Source: Owenia fusiformis
Lineage: Eukaryota > Annelida > Polychaeta > Sabellida > Oweniidae
NCBI GenBank assembly: GCA_903813345.2
Contig: CAIIXF020000009.1
Location: forward strand, 34,260,740-34,324,739
Length of the DNA: 64,000 nt
Reading direction: 5' to 3'
The notes beneath the pieces were generated by a model. That model had not been told where the DNA came from. It did no database searches and worked only from the letters and a program-made list of their open reading frames with translations. Below, piece by piece: positions 3,801 to 63,665 of the stretch (positions within the stretch are counted from its first letter, which is position 1; the number at the start of each line of letters is the position of its first letter). A program made the position numbers and the translations under genes.

Positions 3801-6800
3801 GATAGAAAATGTTGACAAGCAAATCCAGTGAAAGTAAGTAAAGCTTAATTAAAGGTTCTGAGCTATTTATAAATCTAAATTGACCCGATTGACGTCAGTA
3901 TTTCCCTTGATTCTATTGGAATATTGGTTAAGCAACTTGCGTGTAAATTAAATGTCATTATTGACTAGTATTGAAATGTAAAATAGAATTGAAATGAAAG
4001 GTATTTACTGGCAACTGAATCTACTTCCATGGGGTATATATGTTCGAGAATATAGAAGTGAAAGGAAATTGGGAAATTTATTTAACTTCACTAAAGGAAA
4101 GAGAGTCATAAGATGAATTGACTGAAATCTTAAGATTAGGTAATAATAGATTACAATTCATTTGGACCATCTCATAAAAAAGTAGTTTTCTCCTATTTAG
4201 TCAATCACATGTTAGATTAATGGCCCCAAAAGGGAAATCTAAGCATGTCTAATATAGATCTACTACAGTATGATTTGCTTCAGGCCTTTTGGGGAGCAAA
4301 ATGGGGAGCAAATTAACCTGCACCTTTTATATGTGATTTGCATAATGTCATAACGGACATATACGTGTAGACCTAAATGTCATCCCACTTTTGTGAAGAA
4401 TCTTGAGTGTTTTCTCACTTTGAAATTGATTTAGACTACAGATTATAGTCACTCCGAAACTCACCTGTCTTTCAACTAGTAATAGAAGGAACTCACGCAA
4501 GGCCATGATAAACATTGTTGATTTTTATATTGTTAATGTAAAAATACATAAGAATTTTATGAGATCTCAGCTTTTTATTCCTAACATCCGCATTGTCTAC
4601 AATATTAAATTACATTACATCTAAAATGTTGTTGAATATTATTAGACAGCAAATGAGTTATGACTTTGATTAAAGTCAGAAAAATGTGCTCAATGTAAAT
4701 TATTGATGATTGTTATACCATTTATCTATATTGTATACTCACATCATTGCATTATAACTACCATCCAAATGACCCCATCTGTCTATAATAATCAGTTGAT
4801 ATCATATTTGTTATGTTACAATTTTTCTGCTGGATTTTAGTAAGGATCGAGTTCAATTTTTGAGATTTTCAGGGAATTTCATTGATTGCTCACTAATATT
4901 CTGATATTGATATTTTTCAAAAATTTATTATATCATATTATGTACTATGAAGCCCAATGTAATTACTGTCCAAAAATGTTTAGAGCGTGCATGATATTTC
5001 AATAAATCTGTACCTGTTCACTAGCCCGAACTATCTTCATTGGTTCAGTTTTGAATTAATATAGATCTTTACATCTTACAATATAACCTTGAGAGCTAGT
5101 GATGACTAAAACATTTCTAGTAAACAATTTCAAAGCAGGTTCAAACTTAACATCTTTTCCAATGTCTGTTGATAATTTGTCTCGGAGATAATAAGACATC
5201 AAATACATTTACGGCCATTTTCATCCAATTAGAGATGAAGGAAAAAAGGGGAGATGAGATTTTAGCAAATTAATGACCTTGTTTTTGGAATCGATCTCTT
5301 TTCATCTCAGCCAAGTCCTGATCTGTTTTAAGTTCTGGTTTTTCTGTAAAATATTAAGAGGGTTCCGATTCCTTGCTTTATCCTGACATTCTTTGTCAAC
5401 TCCTTCCCTTTTTCCTATTCTTTATCTTCTCTATTCTCTCATTTTTTTCAACTCCCTATATCCCCTCTGATTCCCTTCTTCATCCTCTCATTCTCAATTC
5501 TCTCCTATTTCCTCTTCTGTATCTCATATTCTCTATTATTCCATCATCTACCCTTCCCTCTATCCTTTTCTTTTTTATCATCTTCTCTATCACCCCCCCC
5601 CTTCCCCTCCCATTTTCTATCCTCTCATTCTCTCTCAACCCCTTCTCCATCCTCTCTTATTCTTTCCCATCACCTCCTATCTATCCTCCCCTTTGTTATC
5701 ATCTCTAGCTTCTCATCTCTCCCCCCATTCTCTATCATCCCTTTCTCTATCCCCACATTTTCTGTCAACCCCTTATCTTTCCCACCCCCTTGTCTATCCT
5801 CCCCTTCTTTCATCCCCTTCTCTATCATCCCCTTCTGTACCCTCTCTTTATCCTAACACTTTCTATCCTCCCCTTTTCTCACTTCAGACATGAAAATAAT
5901 GACCACTGTGCCGTTTTATTCATAAAACTTGGTTTGTAAATCAATTCTCTATCAGGATTTGCTTCCCGTTTGCTTCTTCAATAACAGCTTCTAATGATAG
6001 ATATGCTGGGAATCAATATTACCCATAAAAAATCCATGGTAGTCATAATTTCAATCAAAAAATAAAGTAGAAAGAAATGGAATTGACAAGGGGAATAACA
6101 ACAAGGCATGTAGTCTTCAGCCTGAACTTGACAGAAATATCATACCCAATGATTTAATTTGGATTTTTAAAGAGAAAAATGTGAAATTCATATAGAATAT
6201 GGATGATCTGAAGTATTGGTGAGCTATAAATAAACCTGCCATGGGGATCTATTTTATACCTCAGCCATAACACGCTACCTTTTTACATCATGAAGATGGA
6301 TTAACAAAGCTTGTTAAAGGTAGAATATAAGTGTTGCATCTCTCTGGTAAAGGTTCTCTGTCCAGACATACCATTCCATGGAAATTTTCCGTTTTTTCAC
6401 TGTTTAATAAGGTATATCAACATTCTCATTAAATGCCTCTAAAATATTTATTTTCAATATATTTACCTGGTAATATATACAAGCATGTATATGTTAAATG
6501 ATCTAAAACAAAAAATGATAGTTGTTTAATGAGAATTCATGAATATACCCATGTGTAATTCTTCAGAAATTCATTTTTGAGTCTGGCAATCATTTGACAC
6601 CAAATCAATTCATACCTGTTAAGGGAACGTCTCAATATATCATACCTGTAAAGGGAATGTCTCAATATGTCAGTTTACAATAAGATAAGTGCCATTTTCC
6701 TCTGTCTGACATAAGCCATTACCAACAAAATCAAGGAAAAAAAAAATATAAGATGTATCTATCCCCCTCCTTTGTTATCCCCTTCTCTATCATCTCCTCC

Positions 6801-9800
6801 TGTACCCTCTCATATAAAACACTCATTGAAAACTGCAAAAGAAAATTACTTCTTTCCTTTAGATTCAAACTCTGGTGTTGCTCATACCTGAAATGGACCA
6901 TGCAGACAACTTGGTTCTATTCAGTAGTGAAACAAACATTCCATATATTACAAAATCTATTTTTCATCACAATGTTTTAAGGGGAGGAAAGGACCTACCA
7001 CAACATGTAATTACTCAAGTTTTTATCGTAAATTGTTGTATTAATACATTCAGGAGTCCAATGTATAGTCATGCAGTGTCCTAAGGAAATCATTGTTTAG
7101 TCGTATTATTGTTCTCTAGGAATACCTTTTGGAATTACTTTTTTAGTCACACAATTTTTGGGAATTACTCTTTAATAATTATATCATTGTGTTTAGAGTT
7201 TTCTGTTATGTTATACCTGAATGATGTCCAGTTCAGTCAAATAATGCCTCAGGAATTACTTCTATAATGAATGGGCATAGTATAAAGTTTGGTCAGTTGG
7301 TATAATGGAATGCTACCACCTTTGCTGCATAACCCCCACCCCCCCCCCCACCCTTGCCCTTTGGTTATAAAATTCTTTGGCATTCCCCTGCAATGGATTA
7401 TACAGTTCATTGAGCATTTATCATTGCCCAAATGAAGGAAGGTTTGGATGAGTAAGATTATGCTAGATTGAAGCAGTTTTTGTGCTTATTAATAACATTT
7501 TGTTCATTTATTTAGGGACAGAAACCCTTCTTGTTGATTAGGTCAAGTTTTTCTCATACTTTGGAACACATTCGTATTTATTAATGACTTTGTATGTTCA
7601 CCTCCCTTTGGTATAAATTATTTCCATAGATTGGGAGATATTGCAGAGGTCTTGAAACTTGAGATGTCATTAAGTACTTCCCATTCTTTTAAAAATGGAT
7701 GCCATATTTGTGTCTCACCATTCGTTACAATCTTTAAAATGGTGGTAGAAATATCATCTTGGATTTGAAAGATGACCACCAGTCCAGTCCACTGTTTTTT
7801 ACTTACAAATAACAGGATACCATCTTATTAAAAAATCAATATATGGCAAACCAGAGCCGTTTGAAGTGAAAATGAGTTTCCGTCCAAATGACTTATTGTA
7901 AATTGTCAATTCTGCCAGTATAAATTGTCGTAAACCTTTCAATAATTTCTCATGGTAGTCGAGTTTCTATTTGACTAGAATGAAAAATAAAAAGGGACGC
8001 AGATATAAATACAAACAAGCACAATTACGAAACTTTATTTTTTATGTAAAAAACGAAATAAAATGAAACATTTTGTTTAAATTCTAGATAAAAATGATGT
8101 GTCGTGTACTTGATAAGATGAGAAGCTTGAAAATAAAAACGCAGTTAATGATTGGTTTACTGCTTTTATTAGGTGCATGGTACATTGGTAGATGATTTGT
8201 GGTTATCTTCACCCAACCAAGAAAAGGTTACTAAATTTATTTCATCAATAAATGAAGGATAGTTTATTTCATAATTTGGCACCAAACTATTTATCACCAT
8301 CCAAATACAACCTACAGCCCTCCCCCAGAATTCATATACAAGTTTCTTTGATCTTCATCCTCTGATCATCTAATTCTTGAGATCGGAATTTGATACCCTG
8401 GATTGAAAATGGAAAATATTTCATTGCACCCAGTTGTGCCCCCTTCTGTATTTCATTTAGGCTAAAGGGAGAATTATTATAGGTATCCACATACCTATTA
8501 CAATGTCTTTCACGCGAAAAGTTTTGCATAATAAAAAAGTGTCTCTTACCAACATTAGATGGGCTTAGAGCTAGTGGTTCAATATATTGATATCATCATC
8601 CTTCCTAAATATTCCTGATATTCTAAAATTGATCCAATTTTTTAAGACCCAGTTTATTCTAAAAGGAATACAGATCAACCTCACATTCAAGCATTTCCTT
8701 AATAAAGTTAAAGAAAAACTTAGCTATTAAAGCTCACAATGATGGGCTCCATGGGAGAATATAGGAATGTTTTGAATACCCTGCTGATACATCCTTGTCA
8801 AACTTGGTCAATGTATCCATATTAGCTTCAAGTATACAATATAGACATGTTTGTGATGATCTTTGTCTCTAACAGATGATAACTCAAATTCTGTTTTTCT
8901 GATTTTGATCATAGGGAAGGCTAATAATATATAGGTTTGCATAATTGATAAGAGTTTGCGAGGATTTACTACTGGCCTTAATGTTGTTACTATACCTATC
9001 ATGCAATTACCCAAATGCGAGTAAGTAGTTACCAGTTTCACCACCAGGTGGCTGATTCGGGTCAATTAACATGGCAGGTATATAAGAAAGTTCCCTTAAA
9101 CTTGAATATTATCAATTTAAGTGACTCAATTTTCATATAACCCTTATGTGTCTGATACTTATACTAATGAAAATATGTCCAGTAAAGCAAAATATTATCT
9201 GTCCACTAAAAGAAAAGATATTTCATTTTTTGTGGTTTTATAGCATGGGGTCTATGGAGAATCTCCCCGAGCTAGAAATCACATTTTCAAAGAAAATTAA
9301 TTTTTCAAAGTTGATAAACACTTTTTAAAACCACATTTTTAGATATAATTTTACATGTAGATTTCAAATATGATATTACTTTGAATGAATTTTTAATTTT
9401 TAATGACGTAATCATTTACTCGCATCTGGGTTATTGATCATTATTTTTTTGTGTTTCAGGGCTGGACCTGGTTGAATGGTTGTCACGGCGACTTCGGGTA
9501 TGTGACAACAACGAGGCAATACATATCGCAACACACCTATGCCAACATGGGTACTTTTTCCCAGTGACAGAAATGCGTAATCTAGTTGTTAAAGATGATC
9601 AAACTTTATACAGATTTCAGGTAAGTTTGATAAAGTTGAAAGATCCATGTAATGATGTCTATCCTTTGTAAAAATGACATATGTGAAAGTTAAATACTAA
9701 AATGCAGTTTACTCAAATGAACCTAAAAATCAACCTATTCTTGTGTTCTTTGTTCAGAGGCTTTGTAAAGTCTGAATGGAGCTTTTCTAATAGTGAATTA

Positions 9801-49670: not shown

Positions 49671-50208
49671 GGTGATGCACTGTATGCTCACTGGTGATCC
49701 ACTCGATTACGCTGGAACTGTTTCGGTAACAAAATGTCTGAACGTCGAAGGTACGATTTTTCTTTTTTCCTTATTGCACACGTTGTAGGCAGAATTCCCA
49801 CGACATTTTTTATCACAAACGTGTATCAGTATCATATGTTTAAGAAAATGTACACATTTGCGAACAAATAGTTCTGAAGACAACAGAATCGTCGATTTAA
49901 TTCCTCACTTAAGTTACATAAACGGTATTTCGAAAAATCAGTTAAGATCTGCACTTTTAACCCCTACCATTTATGTAACTTAAGTGAGGAATTAAATCAA
50001 CGATTCTGTTGTCTTCTGAGATATCTTTCACAAACATATAGATTTTCTAAAACATACGATACAGACACACATTTGTGACAAAAAACGTCTTGGGGATTCT
50101 GCTTACAACGCGTGAAATAAGGATAAAAGAAAAATCGTACCTTCGACGTTCCGACATTTTGTTACCGAAACTTTCGGTACCAGCGTAATTGAGCGGATCA
50201 CCAGTGAT
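49671..50208. repeat. 540-bp foldback with arms of about 250 bp
   Basis: ACTGGTGATCCACTCGATTA and GATCACCAGTGATG are the outer ends. AACGTCGAAGGTACGATTTT and GAATTAAATCRACGATTCTG stretches recur inverted in both arms. The centre is near 49950. It ends about 200 bp beyond the likely nucleolin 3' end. Confidence 0.85.
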
Positions 50209-50319
50209 GCTAATGGCAAAGACAAATCAGCATTAGCATAAAAGGTGTTTTATAACCACCTTGGAAGTTGTACAAGATGTTATAGCCAGAAATCATAGAC
50301 GTTTTCAAGTGAACAAAAC

Positions 50320-50988: not shown

Positions 50989-51125
50989 TTAATCATTAAA
51001 TTTGGTTTTCTTTCCTGGGGTTCCTGCGCCTCTTCCACCCCCGAATCCTCCTCGTCCACGACCACCTCCTCTGCTGCCACCACGACCTCTGCCTCTTCCA
51101 CTACCTCTATCTCCTCCATGACCAT
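50989..51125 (-). CDS. NCL: Nucleolin exon n (GAR/RGG tail and stop)
   Basis: About 35 residues of Gly/Arg repeats with RG and RGG units, then GTPGKKTKFND and TAA. The last eight residues match the conserved nucleolin C-terminus. Acceptor catattgcag. Confidence 0.94.
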
Positions 51126-54100
51126 CTGCAATATGAGGAACATGAACTAGAATATACCAAGTGACATCTAAAATTCAATAGTTAATGTGCATTACAAAAT
51201 TATTTTGAGGGACAAAACACAGAATATATTGTGAATGTTATGAATTTACTACCAAAATTTCAAACAGTATAATATTGATTACAATGGTTTAAAATGAAAA
51301 ATTATTTATTGTGTAAATTTCCTGCTATTTTAAAGCGGTGGCCATCTTGAAAGCTATATACTAGCTAATATCCACCCACTAGTATTCCGGTTATCTTCTG
51401 GAGACAGAGGGCTTCACTATATCCCAACTGAACTTCGTTGATTAGGATCATTAATAATTAGTTAAATATGAAGGTGTTGCTCAGTATAAGGTAACAGTTG
51501 TGAAATCATAGAACTCATAAGGTGTCCTAATAGTTTTGTCATCATAGCAACTTTTATTTAAATGTCTGAATAATTACATTATGGGTTAACTCACCTCTAC
51601 CTCCACGGCCACCTTGCCCACCTCTTCCGCCACCAAAACCGCCACTTCGTCTATCACCACCCTTGGGGGTAGCAAAGTCCAACAAGACCTCTCTTCCATC
51701 TACCTCAATACCATTGTTTTCATCCATAGCTGTCTTGGCATCTTCAGGACTAGCAAACTCAATGAAACCAAACCTATACAAGCAAGAAACATTAAACATA
51801 TATTTTGTTTAGTTACTACAGTAGTTGCAACATTTTCCAACATTATTTCCTAAACTGTGTTATCTACATTTTGATTGAGGGTCACAGTGAAAAACATGGA
51901 ATTATTGTGAAATAGATAGACGTTGTGAATTTACTCCCAAAATTTCAAACAATAATATTTATTACTTTTGTTTAAAATGAAGACCTTAAGATTTTCTCGA
52001 AAAATTTTTACAATTCAAAGCATGGCCATCTTAAAAACTTTTTGTTGCGTAACAACTATTCACCAATATACATCATTCCATCATATGTGAAAATCTGTCC
52101 ACTAGTATTCGAGTATTCTTCCGGATGTCCTGACGGATGTCATTTGTTGTTGCTGCATCAGTGTCTCCATTCGTTTTTTCATTTTTTTTAATTGTCTTGT
52201 GTTCGAACATGATGTTAGTAATTTTCCTTTCTACAGGGTCTACAGACTTAAGACTGCACATTGGTGGGACTTCACTATATCCCTACCAAACTTCGTTCTT
52301 TAAGATAACAAAGCTCTAAGCCTTTAATGCTCACATAGTCAGATTACCTGCGGTTTTATGTCTCTTTTGACAGACAAATGAATGGTGTTACCTGCCTCAC
52401 CATGTGGGCCAAAACAATCCATATAAGGCTTTAACTCAATTCTGTTACAACGTACCCTTTAGGCTTGCCTGTGTCTCTATCTGTTGATATTCGTGCATCT
52501 ACACAGCTCTCAAAGGCTCCCTTTAAACTATCTGGAGTTGTGTCAAAGTTCAAGTTCTTCACAAACAATGTGTTGCTTTGTTCACCACCTGTAAAAGTAA
52601 TATATAGGGAATATATAATGCAATGGAGCTGGATTATCTTGTGCACATGCATATAAACATTTAGATTTCATAGTAGCAAGCAAGGGGCTATGCAATAGCA
52701 CACAAAACTGACACAAGGAACATGAACTAGAATATATACTAAGTGACATCTAAAAGTCAATGAGCATGTCTGAACTAATTATAGAAAGAAAATATATATG
52801 AAGGAATGTTTGGAAATAAACAACCAAAAGTCAACAATAATATTGATTATTACTTTGGTTTAAAATGAAAAACTTCACATTTTTGCATTTAAATCCCCCC
52901 TGGCCATCCTGAAATCTTTGTGGTGTAAATCTCTCAAACAAATAAGAAAATCCATCCACTAGTATACAATTTATCTTCCAGATGGACAGACTGCAAATGG
53001 GCTTCACTATATCCATACCGAACTTTGTGTGTTGGGAGAAATACATGTAATTAATTTATGCTGGAGTTGTTCGGTATAAGTAAGTTGTGAAATCATAAGG
53101 TGTCCTAATAGTTTTGTCATCATTGCAACTTTTATTTATGTGCATACAATTATTGTGATGTTCATGTACATTATGGCTCAACTCACCTCTACCTCCACGG
53201 CCACCTTGCCCCCCTCTTCCGCCACCGAAACTCCCACTTCGTCTATCACCACCCTTAGGGGTAGCAAAGTCCAAAGTCACCGCTCTTCCATCTACCTCAA
53301 TACCATTGTTTTCATCCAGAGCGGTCTTGGCATCTTCAGGACTAGCAAAGTCAATAAAACCAAACCTGTGCAAGCAAGAAAAAATAAAACATGATTTGTT
53401 TAGATAGTAGTTACCACATTTTACAACAGTATTTCCTGAACTACAGTAGATAGTCTAGATCTTAATTAATCTGACCCACGTGGACCCTCTCTTCGATATC
53501 CAGGATATCCTCTACCTTGAAGGAGAGATTACCACAAGTGTCAGTCTTGCATCATTTGTGTTCATGTTGTTTTGTATAAAGTAACAGTTGTGAAATTATA
53601 AAACTTAAATGTCCTTATAAATTTCTCATCATAGAAACATGAATTGTCAAATAGGATTAATATAGACACCAGGGATCTCCTCCAGCATAAGAGAAACCAA
53701 GCTTTAAGCCCCATTGAAAATCTGTGTGCATCCTGTCAAAGTGATGAATGCCTGAGACAATTAGGATTTGGCACTGTTGTGGCACCAAAATGGCACTATT
53801 TGGTGGGCTCACATGGTATGATTATTTAAGGTTTCATTTTCTTTTGACAGACAAATGAATGATGTTATCAAGCTCACCATGTAAAACCTGAAAAATCAAT
53901 GTAAGGTTTCATCTTACCCTTTAGGTTTGCCAGTTTCTCTATCTGTGGATACCCTTGCATCTACACAGCTCTCAAAGGCTTCCTTTAAACTCTCTGGAGT
54001 TGTGTCATAGCTCAAGTTCCTCACAAACAATGTGTTGCTTTGTTCACCACCTGCAATAATTAAAACAATAGTATATTATGCATTGGAGGTGCAAGTTTTT

Positions 54101-57100
54101 TACTTGTACATATGCATATAAATTTCAAGATGTTGTAATAGCAAGCATGTGCTATGCTAGAAGTATTTAGTTAGAAAGTGGTTTTGTTATCAAGCTACAT
54201 GTGTTAGTTCGGCGAGTGATTTGTCCACATTATTCCTGACAGTTGATTTCAAACAGTAGATTTATCATCATCTAGCTTGTTGTAGTGACCTAGCATATGA
54301 TTTGCTTTAATGATTTGAGCGTCTAAATACTTATTAGTATGTACCAGTTCTTGCTCCCTTCTTGGGGGTGCCATCCTTCTTGCCTCCCATGGTATCCAAG
54401 AAGAGGGCACTACCATTAAGCTCAGACCCTTGCTTATCTTTTACTGCTTCTTTAACTTCTGCAGCTGAGCTTAAGTCAATGAAGCCAAACCTAAAAAAAG
54501 AAATGATATGGTAAGTGTAACATCAGTTTTTATTCTTCTTAATAATAACCATTAAAAAATTATCATAATTCGGTTCATGACATCAAGAAATTTGAATTCT
54601 TACCTCTTCTGATCCCCAGTTACTCTATCCACAGGAATACGGATTTCTACGGCACCAGGGAAAAGTTCTTTAAGCTCCTCTTTCGTGCAATTTTCAGGTA
54701 GATTCTTAACAAACAGGGCTGAAATAAGTCAACAAACTTGCATAAATAACAACCACATTAAGTTCACACCATGCTCGATCAGACACTAGTTGGTTAGCCA
54801 GTATCGAACTATCAGTTCAGTGAGTGGTTTGTCCTCATTATTCAGTTGAAACAGTAGTTTTTTATCATCATCTCTCTTGAAACAATAAACCCTATACATT
54901 AATCAGAAAATATTGCAAAGCGATTTATGACCGATTACACTGAAAATAATTATGCTATACATATCAACAAGGTAAATTCTTGAATACAGACGTTTGAATT
55001 GTAAGATTCACAGGTATGTGTTTTAATAGCCATATAGTGTAATCTTGAGGTAAAGTCCCCCATTTGTAAGTTTTGAAAACAAAAAAGTAGACTGAACAAA
55101 AGTATAAGTACCAGGATATTTAATATGAGTCACTCATTCTCTAATAATATCTTACTTTTTTCATCTTTGTTGAGATGAAGTTCAGACTTGCTTTCCTTTT
55201 TCTTTGCCTTAGCTTTCTCCATGGACACTGGCGCTCCATCTATCTCTTGTCCTTGGCACTCCATGGCTTTATCATAGTCTGCTTCAGTGGATACTTCAAC
55301 GTAACCGAACCTAAAGTAAACAAGGACACAAACTATGTACAACATGTAACCAATGGCTTAGATTTTTCATCATGGATCAGTTGAGGAGACAAGATTTTAG
55401 GACAAAAAGTCGTTCATGAAAATTTGAAAAAATGGTTTGCCTGGATACACATTGAGAAGATAAAGGCATGACAAAAAACTAATTAATAATCATCCCTAAA
55501 AATTTGAAATAGATCCATCGATGGGAAACATGTAGACAAGAGACACATGTTTACAGAGATTTTATTTACTTAGCATTTACCAAGCATGAAAAAAATCCAG
55601 TTCTTGATTTTCATACAATAAAAATTCAAACCTGGGAATAGTATAGTTTCCATATAGCTTTTGAAATCTCGCTAAATCTCGTTTTTCGTGAGATTTTAAG
55701 AGACTTGCATATTAGACCTCTAATGACTTACATTACCTTCTTTTAAATGGTATATTTGAATTCAGTGGGACACTGATTTCTCCTAAAATAGCTTTGATTT
55801 ACACAGTCATGTAATTTGAATAATTTTCTATGACAATTTAAAAAAAGTTGGGCCAAATGTCCATAGATGCAATGCTAAAATTCTTTAAAACCGTGGATTA
55901 TTTGTATGTCAATCAACATTAGCATGTTTAATCACAACATGTTCATAAACAGGGTCATCATGTGGTATATCATTCAAGTTTTATACAGATTCAACAAACA
56001 CACTTTGATAAATCATGAAATTAAGCCACTTTTCCAAGATTTTAGCATGTAAGTGAATGGAGCTCTAGCCAGAGTTAAAAGCTGAATAAAAGATGGCAGC
56101 ACGAGATTTCATTGATTTTTCTGCTATTTAGAAACTATCCTATTTGCTATGAATCCTTCAGACAGTTCAGACTACCTTCACATTTACCCACAATGCCCAA
56201 AACCTAATCAGATCGAGATTTTCAAATGAAAAATCATTCCTGAACATTTGATATTGATATATCAAATGGTTGGCAGGAAACACATACACAAGACAAGAGA
56301 TTGGTATAATGCTCGCCTAGAACACGGAAGTCCCTGGATCGAATCCCAGCATAATTTTTATTTTATTTTTAATTATATGGTTGTGCTTTGATTTTACACT
56401 TAAAAAACATTTATAACTACGTCAACTTTATATTAAAACATTTATTATCTTGTCAGTTGTATGAAAATGTAAAAAATAATATATGTCAGCTTATTGCTTT
56501 CTGTTATACAAAATATTATCACTCACTGAATTTTCTAAAAACATTCAAAATGGCTGCCATAACTGAGCCAACATGTATATTGAAAATACATATTCCACCC
56601 TTTATCTACAATAAATAATACAGTAAACAGGAATAAATAGTTTCTAGTTTTATCTAACTTACTTTTTGCCTGTTCGTTTGAATGTTCTGACAATATTATT
56701 AACACCAGCTTCCTCAAAGAATTCCTTCAAGGTTTCCTCTGTTGTGTCTGCATTCAGATTGCCACAGTATATACTGATGCCTGGAATTATAAAAAAAGAA
56801 CATATTAATGTTACAACTGTCATTTTGAATGACTCTGCAAGGGCATATTTTTGTCATTTGAAGCACACAATCTTTTAGTTTTCATTGTCAAACAAGAAAA
56901 CAGCGAATCCCAATGAACAAAACATATTTTGATAAATAGCAGCCATCTTGAGAACTTCTTAAGCACTGAGCTCCTTTATCAATGTCAACATATAAAATAT
57001 GAGCCAAATCAATCCGCTGATATCTGATTCATCAAAGATAACATGATTTACAAAAAAGGCAGCCATTTTGAACTGAGTGACCATATTGAAAATTCCTTCT

Positions 57101-60100
57101 CGAGCAGAAGTCCAGGCCCGTAGCCAGGGGGGTTCGCAGGGTTCGGGCGAACCCCCCCTGGCCAAAAATTCTTTCAAAATCATGCAGTTTTTCACCATTT
57201 TGAGCACTTCTCAAGTGATTTTAGCCATATTTGGGCCAAAATTGTCAAATGTGAACCCCCCCTGGAAAATTTTGAAAAAGGAACCCCCCCTTAGCAAATC
57301 CTGGCTACGGGCCTGAAGTCCTACACCCATATTTAACGAGAAAAACAGCAACTCCGTGGAGTAGCAAATCCCACCGAACAAAACATAGTTTGATTATTAC
57401 AAACAGAGCTACTGTGTCCCTATCAGCATATAAAATCCATTCAATGCTATTTGAGTTATCAAAGATTACATTTTTGAAGAAAAATGGCGGCCATTTTAAA
57501 ATTCAACTGCCATCTTGAAAATTCTGTGTCTCTAGGCATCATCAGATAAAATTTGATCCAAATCCATCACTCGTATTTGAGTTATCAAAGATTACATTTT
57601 TTACAAAAATGGCCGCCATTTTGATATTTAGCAGCCAATCTAAAAATCTCTTCAGTGTAGCTCCTTTGTATTTGAGTTATTAAAGATTACATTTTTTATG
57701 AAAAATGGCAGCCATTTTGAAATTCAGCCGCCATCTTGAAAATTCTTTCTTGAACAAATCTACTTTGTCCCTAGCCATCATCTAATAACATTTCTTCGGA
57801 GAGACAAAAATAAGAATCATTTATCAGAAATATGACTATTCATTTGATTATTGTTCAATCATGTACCTTCCTGTGTTTCTTCAACCTTCTGTTTCTTTGC
57901 CTCTTTTTTGCTCTCCTTTTCCTTCTTACGTTTTGTTGATTTGTTCTCTACTGGGGCTTCCTCCTCTTCATTGCCGGATTCTTCCTCTTCGCTGTCAGAT
58001 TCTTCTTCTTCCTCTTCACTGTTGTCACTGTCTTCATCTTCATCATCATCTTCTTCATCATCTAGGAACATATAAAACATCTATGTTTAGCAATTACTTA
58101 ACACATTATAAAAGGATACATTAAACATGTCTTTTGTTGCCAGAAGCATTAAATTCAGGACCAATCAAAGAATTGCCCAACACGACCGTGCTCTAATTGA
58201 ATTGAATCAGAATGCAGCATAGCCAATTTAAAACGTTTTCTATATTTAAGTTATTGGAAGTTTTTAAGAATTTTTTACAGAAGCCAACCGCCACCTGCCG
58301 ATACCCACCAACCAACCGGCACCACAAGAAATGGAGACCATAACAATATGTCACCACTTCTTGGTGGTGACATAATAAAAAAAATCACAGTAAGCATTTG
58401 AAGATCATTTAATAAGAATCATAGTAAGCATTTGAAGAATCCACGAATCCATGACAAAATTTTTAAAAATTGAAATATTTCCACACCGACGTCAGAGAAC
58501 ACACCTCTGGTTTGTTCGATATTTGCTTAAATATGGCATGTATACTTGTGTTGATTGTTAAATTACATAATAGGTTGGGTAAGATTATGTCAAAGTCATT
58601 TGATCTCATCCCAGAAGCCATATTTTGTTATTCCTATCGCTCAGAATTGCTTTAATAATGCAGGGTTCACGATTTAGTTTTAAAACATGATTGCAATATC
58701 TTTCATATCAACAATCCGTCAATCCATGAGCCATTAAGAACAAGAACCAGAACAACGGCAACGCCAAAGCGTAGCGAATCCCATTGAACAGAAATGGCTG
58801 GCATTTTTACCAACGAAATATATAGCAAACAGCATAAAACAACACACCAGAAAGGCCACCATTTTCAAAATGGTTGCTCAATAGACAAGTTGTCATCAGA
58901 AGAAATAATATGCTTATAAGTAGCCACCTATAAATTTTTTGAAAAATCGCATACATGTACTTGTAAAATAACACACATAAAATTGGTGGCCATTTTTCAT
59001 AATGGCTGACTACTCCCCAAAGTTTTATTAGACAATGTGCCATGCTTAAAGTATTCACGTATCAAATATGAACAAAATCGCTCAACTACTTTTCGAGTTA
59101 TAGTAAAAATGACAGCCATTTTTATAAAATGGCCGCTTACTATCTGAAGTGTCATGAGACAGTGTGCAAGGCTCATGAGTATTCACATATCAAATATGAA
59201 CAAAATCGCTTCACTACTTTTCAAGTTATAGTAAAAAACGTAAAAATGGTGGCCATTTTTCAAAAAGGCGCCACCTACTACCAAAAGTGTCATTAGACAG
59301 TGTGCCATGCTTATAGTATTCACATATAAAATATGAAACATACTAAATATGAACAAAATCGCTGAACTACTTTTCAAGTTATATGTACTCAAGTTATGTA
59401 CTCATCTTGTAGATGGTAAATCTTGTAGATGGTAAATAAAATAACATAACATATAGTAAAATACGTTAAAATGGCGGCCATTTTTCAAAATGGCCACTTT
59501 CTACCAAAAGTGTCTTTAGACAGTGTGCCATGCTTATAGTATTCACATACCAAATATGAACAAAATCGATCCACTACTTTTCGAGTTATAGTAAAATACG
59601 TTAAAATGGCGGCCATTTTTCAAAATGGCCGCCTTCTACCAAAAGTGTCTTTAGACAGTTTGCAATGCTTATAGTATTCACATACCAAATATGAACAAAA
59701 TCGCTCCACTACTTTTCGAGTTACAGCAAAAATCGTAAAATAACGAGTAAAGGCCGCCATTTTTCAAGATGGCTGCCATGTGCTTCTTTAATATCAACAT
59801 TTGTACCTTTATTAATGTCCTTCATAATGTTTTTACATTTAAAACATATTGCTATTACAGTTTTACATATTGCACCTAAATTACTGTAAAATCGGCACTT
59901 AAATGGCCGCCATTTTGAAATGAGCAGCCATTTTGAAAATCGGCTTTCGAGCAGAACTTCTACCCCCATAGGGTATATGTGTACAAAATATGAACAAAAT
60001 CGGGCCAACGGTATTTGAGTTATTGCCCGGACGGACGGATAGACGGACGGACGGACGAACGGACGTACTTACGGATGGAGGTGTCCCTATATCCCTCCGT

Positions 60101-63100
60101 ACTTCGTTCGATGGGATAAAAAGTGACCTTATCAAATTGGGGGAAGGGTAGAAAAAAAAATTGGAAGGGTTATCATTATAATTCTGTCACAGCAGCAGCG
60201 GCGTAACATGGGTATTTTGTGTGTGTACAAGTGAGCACAGTCAACGAGCTTTGTGGGGCATTGTGTTGGTTCTTCCCATGATTCGCGAAAATTGCAACCA
60301 TTTGTTACAGACACCAAATGCTGACACTTATGCCTGTCACAAATGATTAAATGCATACATAAACTATAATGGAACCACTTTGTGTCAATAAACAGCATTG
60401 AAAATTGTGAAAAATTGTGACCTCTTTCATACAGAAGTCTATTAATACTTAAAATCTATGTATGCTTACACAGATCAAAAAATACTTACCATCATCACTG
60501 TCCTCTGCAGCTGCGGGTTTTTTGGCTGGTGCAGCCTTGGTATTTTTTGTCTTTACAGCAGGGACCTCTTCTTCTGTTGAAAGAAAATCAAAACTAGAAA
60601 AACAGCAACTCCATGGAGTAGCAATCCCCACCAAACAAAACATATTTTTTGATCATTAGTTGCCATCTTGTTTGTCCCACAGGCATCAACATACGTATAA
60701 TATGTAAACCATATCCATAAATTAGCATTTGAGTTATCAAAGATTACATTTCTTTACGAAAAATGGCAGCCATTTTGAAAATCTTTCTCAAACAGAGCTA
60801 CTGTGTTCCTAAGCATCAGCACATAAAATTTGAACAAAATCCATTTACTGCTATTTGAGTTATCAAAGATTATATTTTTTTAATGAAAAATGGAGGCCAT
60901 TTTAAGATTTAGCAGCCTTCTTGAAAATTCTTTGACAAACAGAGGTATTTGCTGGAATTACACCATGTGTTTTAGAAAGACGCCTAAAGTTTTAACCTGG
61001 TTTGAAAAATAGGTGTAATCACGATTGTGGATTTACAAAAGCGGTTTTCCAAAACTCCTAGAACCCTAGTCACTAAAAAACGCCTTAAATCGTTATGCGC
61101 TTTTGGAGTGTAGTGTAATACCGATCGGTTTTTGTAAAACGCCTTACCTGGGTTTTTACCATTTGCCCTAAATGAAATAAGATGTTTTTCGAATGCTTCA
61201 CATTTGGGCCACCGTAAAAATACAGTAAATGATGGATGAGACCCACAAAATGCAATAGGTCATCAAATTATATTGCAAAAATTGATATTAAGTTCACATC
61301 ACCGGCAAAAGACTCAGTTACGTTTTTCCTAGATGCTAAATGAATACATTTATTGTAGATGTACACATCTAATGGATATTCTCAATATCTACATCATTAA
61401 AGTGCACGAAAGGCATTTTAGAAATGACAGGTGTAATTTCAAAATAAAATTCCTAAGGCGCTTCAGAAATGATGGTGTAATCAGGATGGCGATTTTGTAA
61501 AGCCCTTTCCACTAAAGCGCTTTTCACTAAAGCGCTTTTAGCGTTTTTTTCAGGTGTAATTCCAGCAATTGTGTCTCTCGGCATCATCATATAAAATTTG
61601 ATCAAAATCTGTTCACTGATACTTGAGTTATCAAAGATAACGTTTTTTACGAAAAATGGCCGCCATTTTGATATTGAGCAGCCATTCTAAAAATCTCTTC
61701 TTCAGTGTAGCTCCTTTGTCCCTAAGCATCGGCATATAAAATCTGAACCAAATTCATCAACGATAGATGGTATTTGAGTTATCAAAGATTACGTTTTTTA
61801 TGAAAAATGGTGGCCATTTTGAAATTCAGTCGCCAACTTGAATGAAAATTCTTTCTTGAAAAATCTACTTTGTCCCTAGGCATCTTTAATTTGAACCCAT
61901 TCAGTGCTATTTGAGTTATCAAAGATTACGTTTTTTTATGAAAAATGACCGCCATTTTGATATTTAGCAGCCATTTTGAAAATCTCTTCTTCAGTGTATA
62001 GCTCCTTTGTCCCTAGGCATCAGCATATACAATTTGAACCAAATCCAACTAGTATTGGAGTTATCAAAGATTATATTTTTTTATGAAAAATGGCGTCATT
62101 TTGAATTATGCAGCCATATTGAAAATTCCTTCTCGAGCAGAGATTCTACCCCCATAAGGCATAAGCCTATAAAATTTGAATCAAATCCGTTAAGTATTTG
62201 TATTTGAGTTATCACCGGGCAAACGGACAGACGGATGGACAGACGAACGGATGGACGAATGGATGGATGGCTTTCCTATATACCTTTCCTCAAACTTTGT
62301 TTGCATTCTTTTCACAGAAAGACTATCACATTCTTTTCACAGAAAGACTATCACAATCTGTTCACAGTATTCATGTATCAGAGTAAGATCATTCTCAACT
62401 TTTTGCTTGAATCAAACAAAGTTTGGCTTAAATAGCATGGTTATCTGCATCTATCGATCAGATGGGGAAAAAAGTGTTTATCACATCCAAGTAGTTATCT
62501 AAGTGTATGATTTAATAGAGAAGTGTCATGCAATCATAATTTTCTTATTTCATTCAGAAAAATCAAATTACAGATTCAAATTGAGAATCAATACCTTCAT
62601 CACTGTCATCCTCATCCTCGCTATCATCATCGTCTTCATTATCATCACTATCTTCCTCATCACTATCCGACTTTTGCTTCTTGGCAGGTGGTGCTTTGGC
62701 AGTGTTTGCAGCAGCCTTCCTCTTGGGAGCAGGGGCTGGTGTCTCTTCTGTGGAAAAGATTCATTTGTATTGACTGTCACTCATGTACAATGCACTTCAT
62801 TCATGAAGGCTTTACATTGCATTTACTCAGACTTATATCTGCATGTGATTCACATTTATCTGTTTGTCACTCCCAGAGTTAATTTCAGACAAATACACAT
62901 CAAACACCAAAAACCAAGATTGGATAAATCGCCCGTTTCTTATAAAAATAATCTGTGGATCCAATACACCATAACAAACTTTTCCAGCTCACCTTCCTCC
63001 ATGCTCTCATCTTCACTTTCATCTGAGTCGTCTGAATCATCAGAGTCACTGTTGGTCCCTGGTACTCCATTTGGAATTGCTTTTCCATTGGTCTTGCCCA

Positions 63101-63665
63101 TAGCCTTGGTAACCGCTACCAGGGCCTCAGCCTGCAAAACCACATGACAAAATGTCACCACCTAGTTCACAATATTATTGAGAACTGATTTTGAACTTTG
63201 AAGCAAGTTAAAATAGACCTTTTTTGACCCTCAGAGGATTTGAACTTCTGAGAACTTGTAGATGATTTTGAAAAAAAATTGGTCAATTTGAAGCAAGTTG
63301 AAAAAAACCTTTTTGACCTTGAGAAGGTCTTGTAGATGATTTTGAAAAAACTGAAGTCATATCAGTCTAAACAGTATTTGTTAGGTTATTGGAACTTTGT
63401 TAAAGACACCAACCGCCGATCGCTGATCACCAACCACCAACCGCTGTCACAAAAAATGGGGACTATAACATGTCACCACTTTTTGGTGGTGACAAAATTA
63501 TGATTCATGAAAACAAAGCTAGAACATTCATATAAGAAACATATAAGAAACAGAATGTCTTACATCATCAGATTCCTCTTCACTACTGGACTCTTCTTCA
63601 CTGGAGCTTTCCTTGGGTGGAGGTGGAGCAGCCTTAGCCTTCTTCGCCTTTGTCATGTTTGCTTT
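50989..63665 (-). CDS. NCL: Nucleolin (whole gene, 14 coding exons, 5' end possibly outside window)
   Basis: Exons in transcript order: 63665-63564, 63131-62993, 62747-62595, 60573-60490, 58061-57867, 56780-56663, 55310-55156, 54718-54604, 54490-54345, 54050-53918, 53365-53187, 52588-52456, 51773-51595, 51125-50989. The frame is open throughout, 652 residues from the Met at 63656. Layout: acidic/Ser blocks alternating with Lys/Ala/Pro linkers (1-221) ending in a basic KKQKVEETQE stretch; RRM1 223-300; RRM2 313-385; RRM3 403-487 with RGG; RRM4 507-591; GAR tail to 643; final GKKTKFND, matching the GKKTKFE end of vertebrate nucleolin. Known role: nucleolar RNA-binding protein in rDNA transcription, pre-rRNA processing and ribosome assembly; acidic tracts bind histones and GAR binds RNA and proteins. 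Odd: an RGG block follows RRM3 as well as RRM4 because of an exon-pair duplication. Introns carry snoRNA-like sequences, as in vertebrate NCL. Confidence 0.94.
51476..51551 (-). ncRNA. Candidate C/D-box snoRNA (family A, copy 1, most intact)
   Basis: Read on the minus strand inside the nucleolin intron after exon m. A 5-bp terminal stem (GTTGC and GCAAC) encloses a C box ATGATGA at 51545-51539 and a D box CTGA at 51484-51481, spaced as in box C/D snoRNAs (76 nt overall). An internal TTAGGACACCT is complementary over 11 nt to AGGTGTCCTAA, which I recognise from the conserved large-subunit rRNA segment GCAGGTGTCCTAAGG. Vertebrate nucleolin introns host snoRNAs, so the host is apt. The internal D' box is not canonical, so the guided position is uncertain. 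Confidence 0.55.
51595..51773 (-). CDS. NCL: Nucleolin exon m (RRM4 second half, duplicate of exon k)
   Basis: GFGFIEFASPEDAKTAMDEN, then FATPKGGDRRSGGFGGGRGG. Acceptor gcttgtatag, donor gtgagt, phase 2 to phase 1. It leads directly into the C-terminal GAR exon. Confidence 0.94.
52456..52588 (-). CDS. NCL: Nucleolin exon l (RRM4 first half, duplicate of exon j)
   Basis: GGEQSNTLFVKNLNFDTTPD, ending STDRDTGKPKG. Acceptor acttttacag, donor gtacgt, phase 1 to phase 2. Confidence 0.94.
53065..53130 (-). ncRNA. Candidate C/D-box snoRNA (family A, copy 2, degenerate D box)
   Basis: Homologous to the copy at 51476-51551 and in the equivalent position after the duplicated exon k. The C box ATGATGA and the 11-nt TTAGGACACCT are preserved. 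The terminal stem is AGTTG with CAACT. The D box reads CCGA instead of CTGA, so this copy may be inactive. Confidence 0.4.
53187..53365 (-). CDS. NCL: Nucleolin exon k (RRM3 second half with internal RGG)
   Basis: RNP1 GFGFIDFASPEDAK, then FATPKGGDRR and an RGG run (GGGRGGQGGRGGR). It is 179 nt, the same as exon m, with 5 differences in 59 residues. It ends in phase 1, so it can join either exon l or exon n. Confidence 0.94.
53561..53643 (-). ncRNA. snoRNA-like relic (family A, copy 3)
   Basis: Third homologous stretch, in the intron between exons j and k. The C box ATGATGA and an 8-bp terminal stem (TTCATGTT with AACATGAA) are present, but the rRNA-complementary stretch is changed (AAGGACATTT) and no D box is recognisable. 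It has no exon beside it, so it is probably a relic of a larger duplication. Confidence 0.3.
53918..54050 (-). CDS. NCL: Nucleolin exon j (RRM3 first half, duplicated)
   Basis: GGEQSNTLFVRNLSYDTTPE, ending STDRETGKPKG. It is 133 nt, the same length and phase (1 to 2) as exon l, and I count 7 differences in 45 residues. Acceptor attattgcag, donor gtaaga. Confidence 0.94.
54191..54279 (-). ncRNA. Candidate C/D-box snoRNA (family B, copy 2)
   Basis: In the intron between exons i and j, minus strand. C box ATGATGA at 54271-54265, flanked by a perfect 7-bp stem CAAGCTA with TAGCTTG. It shares CTACTGTTT and GGACAAA stretches with the copy at 54805-54882. The D box is degenerate (CCGA). Confidence 0.33.
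54345..54490 (-). CDS. NCL: Nucleolin exon i (RRM2 second half)
   Basis: RNP1 is RFGFIDL, followed by EAVKDKQGSELNGSALFLDT and a basic linker KKDGTPKKGART. Acceptor ctttttttag, donor gtacat, phase 2 to phase 1. Confidence 0.92.
54604..54718 (-). CDS. NCL: Nucleolin exon h (RRM2 first half)
   Basis: LFVKNLPENCTKEELKELFP holds RNP2 and helix 1, followed by GAVEIRIPVDRVTGDQK. Acceptor cttatttcag, donor gtaaga, phase 1 to phase 2. Confidence 0.93.
54805..54882 (-). ncRNA. Candidate C/D-box snoRNA (family B, copy 1)
   Basis: In the nucleolin intron between exons g and h, minus strand. C box ATGATGA at 54871-54865, internal CTGA usable as D', and D box CTGA at 54820-54817. Core length 55 nt, short for the class. 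No convincing terminal stem was seen. A homologue lies in the intron after exon i. Confidence 0.35.
55156..55310 (-). CDS. NCL: Nucleolin exon g (RRM1 second half)
   Basis: RNP1 is KFGYVEV. It continues AMECQGQEIDGAPVSMEKAK and a Lys-rich linker ending LNKDEK. Acceptor ttactttag, donor gtaaga, phase 2 to phase 1. Confidence 0.92.
55637..56150 (+). repeat. Dispersed repeat, long copy
   Basis: Same ends as 30658-30905, with about 250 bp of extra middle. It lies in the nucleolin intron between exons f and g. Confidence 0.82.
56288..56370 (+). mobile_element. tRNA-like sequence / short SINE
   Basis: TTGGTATAATGCTCGCCTAG resembles a tRNA D-arm with A box, and GGATCGAATCCC a B box. An A/T-rich tail follows. 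No intact acceptor stem was found, so a SINE head or tRNA relic is more likely than a functional tRNA. Confidence 0.45.
56663..56780 (-). CDS. NCL: Nucleolin exon f (RRM1 first half)
   Basis: Encodes ISIYCGNLNADTTEETLKEF and ends FKRTGK. IYCGNL is RNP2. Acceptor taattccag, donor gtaagt, phase 1 to phase 2. Confidence 0.9.
57114..57314. mobile_element. 201-bp MITE with 7-bp TSD
   Basis: AGGCCCGTAGCCAGG and CCTGGCTACGGGCCT are exact inverted ends. GAAGTCC flanks both sides (57107-57113 and 57315-57321). GGGGGG and CCCCCC runs sit inside the ends. It has inserted into an ATGGC-repeat array in the nucleolin intron. Confidence 0.85.
57345..57760. repeat. ATGGCGGCCAT array 1
   Basis: Starts AACAGCAACTCCGTGGAGTA and has three units with GAGTTATCAAAGATTACATT and AAAATGGCGGCCATTTT variants. 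It lies in the nucleolin intron between exons e and f. Confidence 0.8.
57867..58061 (-). CDS. NCL: Nucleolin exon e (largest acidic tract plus basic stretch)
   Basis: A run of about 40 mostly Asp/Glu/Ser residues, then VENKSTKRKKEKESKKEAKK and QKVEETQE. The basic KRKK...KKQKVE segment matches the bipartite nuclear localisation region before RRM1 in vertebrate nucleolin. Acceptor atgttcctag, donor gtacat. Confidence 0.9.
58316..58376 (-). mobile_element. 5' end of a GTGACAT-end element
   Basis: On the minus strand it begins ATGTCACCACCAAGAAGTGG TGACATATTGTTATGGTC and continues with a GTTGGTTGG-type stretch. The 3' end is not present nearby. Confidence 0.6.
58740..60118. repeat. ATGGCGGCCAT array 2
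   Basis: Units of roughly 130-150 bp with AAATATGAACAAAATCGCTC, CTACTTTTCGAGTTATAG, AAAATGGCGGCCATTTTTCA and AGTGTGCCATGCTTATAGTA. It ends in a (GACG)n run with CCCTATATCCCTCCGTACTT CGTTCGATGGGAT. It lies in the nucleolin intron between exons d and e. Confidence 0.85.
60490..60573 (-). CDS. NCL: Nucleolin exon d
   Basis: Encodes EEEVPAVKTKNTKAAPAKKP and AAAEDSDD. Acceptor ctttcaacag, donor gtaagt, phase 1 to phase 1 (84 nt), so it can be skipped in frame, as can exon c. Confidence 0.82.
60596..62290. repeat. ATGGCGGCCAT array 3, interrupted by an element
   Basis: Starts AACAGCAACTCCATGGAGTA. The units have GAGTTATCAAAGATTACGTT and AAAATGGCCGCCATTTTGAT. It ends in (GACGGATG)n-like sequence near 62218-62270. 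The inverted-repeat element at 60949-61568 splits it. It lies in the nucleolin intron between exons c and d. Confidence 0.85.
60949..61568. mobile_element. 620-bp inverted-repeat element inside array 3
   Basis: TTGCTGGAATTACACC and GGTGTAATTCCAGCAA are exact inverted ends. The interior has repeated GGTGTAAT and AAAGCGCTTTT motifs and no recognised coding frame. Array sequence resumes on both sides, which confirms insertion. Confidence 0.78.
62595..62747 (-). CDS. NCL: Nucleolin exon c (acidic block)
   Basis: Encodes ETPAPAPKRKAAANTAKAPP, KKQKSDSDEEDSDDNEDDDD and more acidic residues. Acceptor tttccacag, donor gtattg, phase 1 to phase 1. Confidence 0.85.
62993..63131 (-). CDS. NCL: Nucleolin exon b (acidic/Ser block)
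   Basis: Acceptor ggttttgcag, phase 0. Encodes AEALVAVTKAMGKTNGKAIP, then NSDSDDSDDSDESEDESMEE; donor gtgagc, phase 1. It repeats the family pattern of a Lys/Ala linker followed by a CK2-type acidic serine run. Confidence 0.85.
63126..63491 (-). mobile_element. Complete GTGACAT-end element with AAGGTCA core
   Basis: Minus strand: starts GTCACCACCAAAAAGTGGTG ACATGTTATAGTC, has a GGTTGGTG-rich stretch, then AAGGTCA/AAATTGACC units, and ends AGGTGGTGACATTTTGTCAT. Its 3' edge overlaps the polypyrimidine/acceptor side of nucleolin exon b, so that acceptor's upstream sequence is element-derived. Confidence 0.75.
63564..63665 (-). CDS. NCL: Nucleolin exon a (N-terminus)
   Basis: Acceptor tgtgttcag, then KANMTKAKKAKAAPPPPKE and two SSSEEE blocks ending SDD; donor gtaaga. 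The Met is codon 4, and the three codons before it are open. The true start may be this Met or lie in an upstream exon beyond 64000. Vertebrate nucleolin begins similarly with a basic patch, APPPKE and acidic residues. Confidence 0.8.

Follow-up and report, generated by a model that had tools for sequence, protein, structure and literature searches.

A U58-type box C/D snoRNA element in the last intron of an Owenia fusiformis nucleolin gene, and its copies in other ribosome-biogenesis genes

Introduction

It is established that the D'+5 rule fixes the nucleotide methylated under the direction of a box C/D guide, and U23 is one of the snoRNAs hosted in the nucleolin gene (NCL). In the chicken snoRNA table, U82 and U20 are placed in NCL introns 5 and 11 (PMC2653536), in agreement with an earlier note on the DNA described here, which had named both as residents of vertebrate nucleolin introns. 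The same table assigns chicken U58a/b the neighbouring 28S nucleotides U3682 and G3683 and a 12-nt 5' antisense element, and its U58 row gives Z20 for yeast and snoR10 for plants (PMC2653536). The chicken U58 family, GGgCD61, is given in that account as the sole case in which intragenic and intergenic duplication are combined (PMC2653536). A D box that starts one nucleotide upstream shifts the methylated nucleotide by one, as stated in PMC5389607. Movement of snoRNAs among hosts is likewise established, the account in PMC3511168 describing units in different broadly expressed hosts and a constrained drift, and that in PMC3412847 describing host movement in sponges.

Here we describe a U58-type element in the last intron of a nucleolin gene of the annelid Owenia fusiformis. 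Like vertebrate U20 and U82 in the chicken table (PMC2653536), the element is intronic and its host is nucleolin; guides and targets differ, being directed to 18S there and to 28S here. The present case comprises one box C/D family in five host genes of one genome.

Results and discussion

The element lies in the last intron of a nucleolin gene

The window, which is the whole 64,000-nt stretch of DNA that was analysed, contains a nucleolin gene on its minus strand:

50992..63655, minus strand: nucleolin host gene, ends approximate; acidic N-terminus, four RRMs, RGG exons
51126..51594, minus strand: host intron, the last of the nucleolin gene; splice sites read from the sequence

The host had been named as nucleolin in the earlier note, and this identification stands: besides the acidic N-terminus and the RGG exons, the joined exons contain four RRM_1 stretches (Pfam), and the first three RRMs have as their top solved-structure match Nucleolin 9cb5 (E 7.9e-61). 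Each of the four RRMs is split by an intron, and the protein ends in ...GKKTKFND. An RRM unit has been duplicated within the gene, 51575-51796 being 91% identical to 53167-53388 and 52444-52594 being 89% identical to 53906-54056; judged by these sequences, the intragenic RRM-unit duplication is recent. A second nucleolin-like gene, which encodes RRMs and, after them, three CCHC zinc knuckles and an RGG tail, adjoins the first (G000 C9, ~34331400-34342140; loci L005 and L006).

The last intron provides 43 nt before the element and 350 nt after it. The parts of the element, all on the minus strand, are:

51476..51551, minus strand: intact U58-type box C/D snoRNA element, 76 nt, read from the sequence
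51475-51551, minus strand: extent of the same element by profile match to model R2
51547-51551 with 51476-51480, minus strand: closing stem GTTGC/GCAAC, 5 bp, from the sequence
51539..51545, minus strand: C box ATGATGA, from the sequence
51520..51530, minus strand: guide TTAGGACACCT, with 11 Watson-Crick pairs to 28S AGGTGTCCTAA, from a complementarity search
51515..51518, minus strand: D' box ATGA, from the sequence
51504..51510, minus strand: C' box TATGATT, from the sequence; its TGATT is invariant in all 10 intact copies of the family
51488..51495, minus strand: putative accessory pairing stretch GTTACCTT, complement of 28S AAGGTAAC; 51 of 2000 shuffles are as good
51481..51484, minus strand: D box CTGA, from the sequence

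The 5-bp stem, the C box, the D box and the length of 76 nt that the earlier note had reported are thus all present, with C box, D box and closing stem in the expected order. Within the element, TTAGGACACCT is followed by TATGA, which contains the D' box ATGA; 1 nt lies between the duplex and D'. The proposed sense orientation relative to the nucleolin gene was likewise confirmed, and the box C/D snoRNA-like form is supported.

An independent profile match argues against chance assembly

Short motifs in an AT-rich intron could come together by chance, and single tests leave room for this. A scan of the host gene's strand for a C box, a D box and a stem of at least 5 bp found 1 candidate; shuffled sequences (n=200) gave 0.42 on average and never more than 3. 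A match of 11 nt within 5.5 kb of the rDNA locus arose in 4 of 100 shuffles; for one WDR43 copy (WDR43_a), whose match to the locus is 10 nt long, 20 of 100 shuffles did as well. A search of the whole window with Rfam at gathering thresholds gave 0 matches; the best Rfam family at the element is SNORD58 (RF00151), with 28.5 bits and E 3.5e-4 per 351 bases, against a cut-off of 42. The decisive test comes from model R2, which was built from the six copies in WDR43 and RPL21 described below and contains no window sequence. Across 97,014 bases, R2 recovered 51475-51551 from end to end with 39.7 bits and E 1.6e-8 (such E-values being rough), and gave the other three intact copies of the window's type 37.2-41.7 bits; two places on the plus strand of the window came up at E 0.35 and 2.6. 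The R2 match, together with the occurrence of sharp-edged copies in five genes, leads us to reject chance assembly, which we consider extremely improbable. We conclude that single motifs, like the 11-nt match, are weak evidence when taken alone, that strong evidence comes from the R2 match together with the 28S site shared as top match by the 10 intact copies and the drop in identity outside the element, and that the predicted element is very probably a genuine box C/D guide of an already known kind.

The guide is that of U58, in a different set of hosts

The earlier note had suggested a lineage-specific guide hosted by nucleolin. We reject the idea that the guide is new or confined to one lineage: no Rfam family fits the element better than SNORD58, and chicken U58 as tabulated has the same guide (PMC2653536). 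By its sequence, the guide is the U58/SNORD58 guide, and only the set of hosts departs from that of vertebrates. The likeness to SNORD58/U58 (RF00151) comprises the guide (C)TTAGGACACCT before D', the C and D boxes, the short closing stem and the 28S U/G pair, for which a D' guide is present here with target AGGUGUCC. Guide, boxes and stem agree with those of SNORD58 and suggest a possible common descent with vertebrate U58. Because the scores fall below 42 bits, a curators' cut-off and not a functional feature, we use the term 'U58-type' and do not file the element as a member of RF00151; no U58-type copy reaches the SNORD58 gathering score of 42 bits, and the best copy has 38.0. With this wording, we hold with high confidence that the window element is an intron-encoded box C/D snoRNA of U58 type.

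Hosts here are nucleolin, RPL14, RPL21 and WDR43, whereas the human host is RPL17 (PMC8178906) and the chicken hosts are RPL17 plus one other transcript in the table of PMC2653536. No report of U58 in nucleolin was found in the literature searched. The RPL17 region of this genome (L016 and L017, 10,121 bases) yielded no U58-like guide by pattern, R1 or R2, and RPL17 as a U58 host here is rejected at the sensitivity of these searches. Since snoRNA hosts drift, the lack of a match in this RPL17 region carries no decisive weight for U58 membership. A guide that resides in RPL17 in human and chicken, using other ribosome-biogenesis hosts in another animal, fits such drift.

At least 12 copies are present, 10 of them intact

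We find at least 12 copies, of which 10 are intact (in the two nucleolin genes, RPL14, RPL21 and WDR43) and 2, both in the window's nucleolin gene, are decayed. The count of 12 is a lower bound, the RF00151 genome search having scored 64 of 489,034 candidates without the nucleolin copies among its rows. A DNA search with the window element gives six places: the window copy, the two decayed copies in the same gene, two copies in the neighbouring nucleolin-like gene with CCHC zinc knuckles (loci L002 and L003) and one in an intron of RPL14 (locus L004; host PF01929, eL14). The RF00151 search at E up to 10 gives 11 rows, six of which are copies of a second type on C8 and C2, in WDR43 and RPL21; a DNA search with this second type returns the same six copies and none further. 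Of the five remaining rows, the one that was read, C4:14263522, is U58-like in its 5' part and not in its 3' half. At E up to 10, matches below the cut-off also occur in 10 of 14 prokaryote control genomes.

The host on C2 is RPL21 (PF01157, 157.6 bits), with a match below cut-off to the NCBIfam archaeal L21e model. The host on C8 is identified as WDR43 by its top solved-structure match, human WD repeat-containing protein 43 (E 1.2e-46, compared with 1.3e-15 for WDR3); by Pfam alone, only WD40 is over the cut-off and Utp12 is below it. Exon placement by script shows 8 of 8 copies to be sense, intronic and one per intron, and, by reading, the second nucleolin gene has its two copies between exons and in sense orientation.

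The two decayed copies in the window are:

53066..53128, minus strand: decayed U58-type copy with an intact guide, a D box reading CCGA and a gap of 12 nt; 40.5 and 25.4 bits, R2 21.3 bits
53566..53637, minus strand: decayed U58-type copy, guide changed, D box lost; 36.5 bits

R2 places the first of these at 53065-53129 (21.3 bits, E 0.0031); in the same search of 97,014 bases, the copy at 53566-53637 was not recovered.

Intact copies of one type are alike within the element and mostly unrelated outside it

Comparison of elements and of 120-nt flanks, with 30 random pairs defining the random level (mean 0.33, maximum 0.41), shows that likeness mostly stops at the edges of the element. For the 12 pairs of intact copies of the same type, element identity is 0.91-1.00, and 22 of the 24 flank comparisons do not exceed the random maximum of 0.41. 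One exception, 0.69, concerns the upstream flanks of the window copy and copy a of the second nucleolin gene, where exon-intron units are related by gene duplication; the other, 0.44, concerns the downstream flanks of two WDR43 copies. The two RPL21 copies are identical inside, with flank identities of 0.23 and 0.41. The decayed copies have identities of 0.71-0.77, and at 53066 the element (0.71) is matched by an upstream flank at 0.68-0.78. Because the last two RRM-unit exons are 91% and 89% identical, the copy at 53066 was probably produced by intragenic duplication.

A check for marks of retroposition at the 10 intact copies gave maximal A runs of 2-5 within 40 nt on the downstream side, and words of at most 5-8 nt in common between the two flanks, the one of 8 nt being TAATTATT. 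In the closing stem, 93.3% of cells across copies are paired, and two pairs are changed on both sides, both in the copy WDR43_c; this is equalled by 42 of 500 shuffles, and sliding the stem by +3 gives the same count with a higher covariation score.

The two types differ by one nucleotide and have adjacent predicted targets

The earlier note had also claimed an 11-nt antisense match to a conserved stretch of 28S, and AGGTGTCCTAA is indeed present in a 28S fragment from the same genome. This fragment, located on C10 by a conserved 28S stretch, reads GGTAACGCAGGTGTCCTAAGG. It forms part of the rDNA locus L011 (G000 C10:25638500-25648400), which lies within the chromosome and has a partial LSU (5231-5645, equivalent to LSU positions 2412-2824 in Rfam) followed by a shortened SSU (6480-7853), and is an incomplete, rearranged fragment. 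At the guide site, the fragment agrees with the Rfam eukaryotic LSU consensus, and each of the 10 intact copies has this 28S site as its top complement within the 9.9-kb locus. A search of the same locus, which covers parts of LSU and SSU only, for a further rRNA target of a D-box guide gave nothing convincing.

A single nucleotide at the border between guide and D' separates the two types. The nucleolin/RPL14 type has ACACCTT-ATGA, for which D'+5 gives the U of AGGUG; the WDR43/RPL21 type has ACACTT-CTGA or -ATGA, for which D'+5 gives the G after that U. The predicted 28S targets, U or G, are thus adjacent; we take this pair to be U4197/G4198 in human numbering. With D'+5 applied by hand, the window element should direct methylation of the U of AGGU. 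What is unusual here is the host set and the clean split into two types; by itself, the nucleolin copy is ordinary.

Both types also carry a stretch that could pair with 28S just upstream of the guide site. In six copies, GCGTTACC complements GGTAACGC, 0 nt away; in three copies, GTTACCTT complements AAGGTAAC, whose end is 2 nt short of the guide site; and one further copy has a 9-nt complement at a distance of 1 nt. For single copies, an equally good complement within 60 nt in either direction arises in 19 to 167 of 2000 shuffles, and the copies do not count as independent. The pattern is suggestive, and we consider a putative accessory pairing likely here.

A proposed mechanism and its alternatives

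For the window element, we propose the following course of processing, protein binding and methylation. Nucleolin pre-mRNA would be spliced, and the released intron would be trimmed to a stem-closed 76-nt RNA, whose C/D and C'/D' motifs would be bound by the usual box C/D proteins. Pairing would follow between 28S AGGTGTCCTAA and the guide that lies upstream of D', and fibrillarin would methylate the 2'-OH of the U in AGGU. The sister type, shifted by one nucleotide at D', would methylate the next nucleotide, G. The window element is one of several dispersed, near-identical copies in introns of ribosome-biogenesis genes.

We see even prospects for the broader proposal that U58 in this genome has become a discrete host-hopping unit of 77 nt that occupies five ribosome-biogenesis genes, and that an indel of one nucleotide where guide and D' meet has given rise to two types, a nucleolin/RPL14 type that methylates U and an RPL21/WDR43 type that methylates the adjacent G. 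If this is true, one indel retargeted the guide by one nucleotide and placed two marks under different host genes. With near-identical copies, unrelated flanks and neighbouring predicted sites, the family provides a compact test of snoRNA mobility and of how a one-nucleotide indel may reshape rRNA methylation.

Alternatively, the nucleolin copy could be a passenger, either unexpressed or redundant, that was inserted recently or is kept alike by gene conversion, with working U58 supplied from RPL14, RPL21 or WDR43. Two copies in the same gene are decaying and near-identical copies exist elsewhere, and the likeness of elements between genes fits recent copying. However, the element at 51476-51551 has retained its boxes, guide and stem, whereas the two neighbouring copies in that gene are down to 0.71-0.77, and the DNA search finds the window's type only in the nucleolin genes and RPL14. 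We consider a passenger unlikely, and far less credible still is an element whose target is some other RNA, or the splicing of its host, instead of 28S. Some snoRNAs do affect host splicing, as described in PMC10324135, but all 10 intact copies share the 28S guide stretch TTAGGACAC without change, at the same place before D' and amid unrelated flanks. A working 28S guide is thus the reading that we prefer for the window element.

Other elements in and near the nucleolin genes

Introns of the nucleolin genes also contain SNORD12-type box C/D elements, for which a DNA search gives 5 places. The copy at L006:7067-7158 scores 43.5 bits, over the cut-off of 43; those at L005:8690-8781 and L005:9059-9150 have the two L005 scores of 40.1 and 38.4 bits; the window copy, 62403-62494 (minus strand), scores 39.4 bits and has C and D boxes that by eye are altered; and the fifth place is G000 C8:24913637-24913719. 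A second repeated, C/D-like element has four copies in the two nucleolin genes, at 54815-54875 and ~54190-54290 (minus strand) in the window and at L006 ~610-700 and 1288-1346, the last of these with an 8-bp stem. Its likeness to archaeal sR17 in Rfam is weak (27.4 bits against a cut-off of 36), and it has no convincing rRNA target in the 9.9-kb rDNA locus. At L006:7901-7976 (minus strand) there is a weak SNORD52 match (27.2 bits vs. a cut-off of 45). Finally, a long inverted repeat was seen by eye at ~49700-50210, its arms sharing stretches such as CGTACCTTCGACGTTC and its complement.
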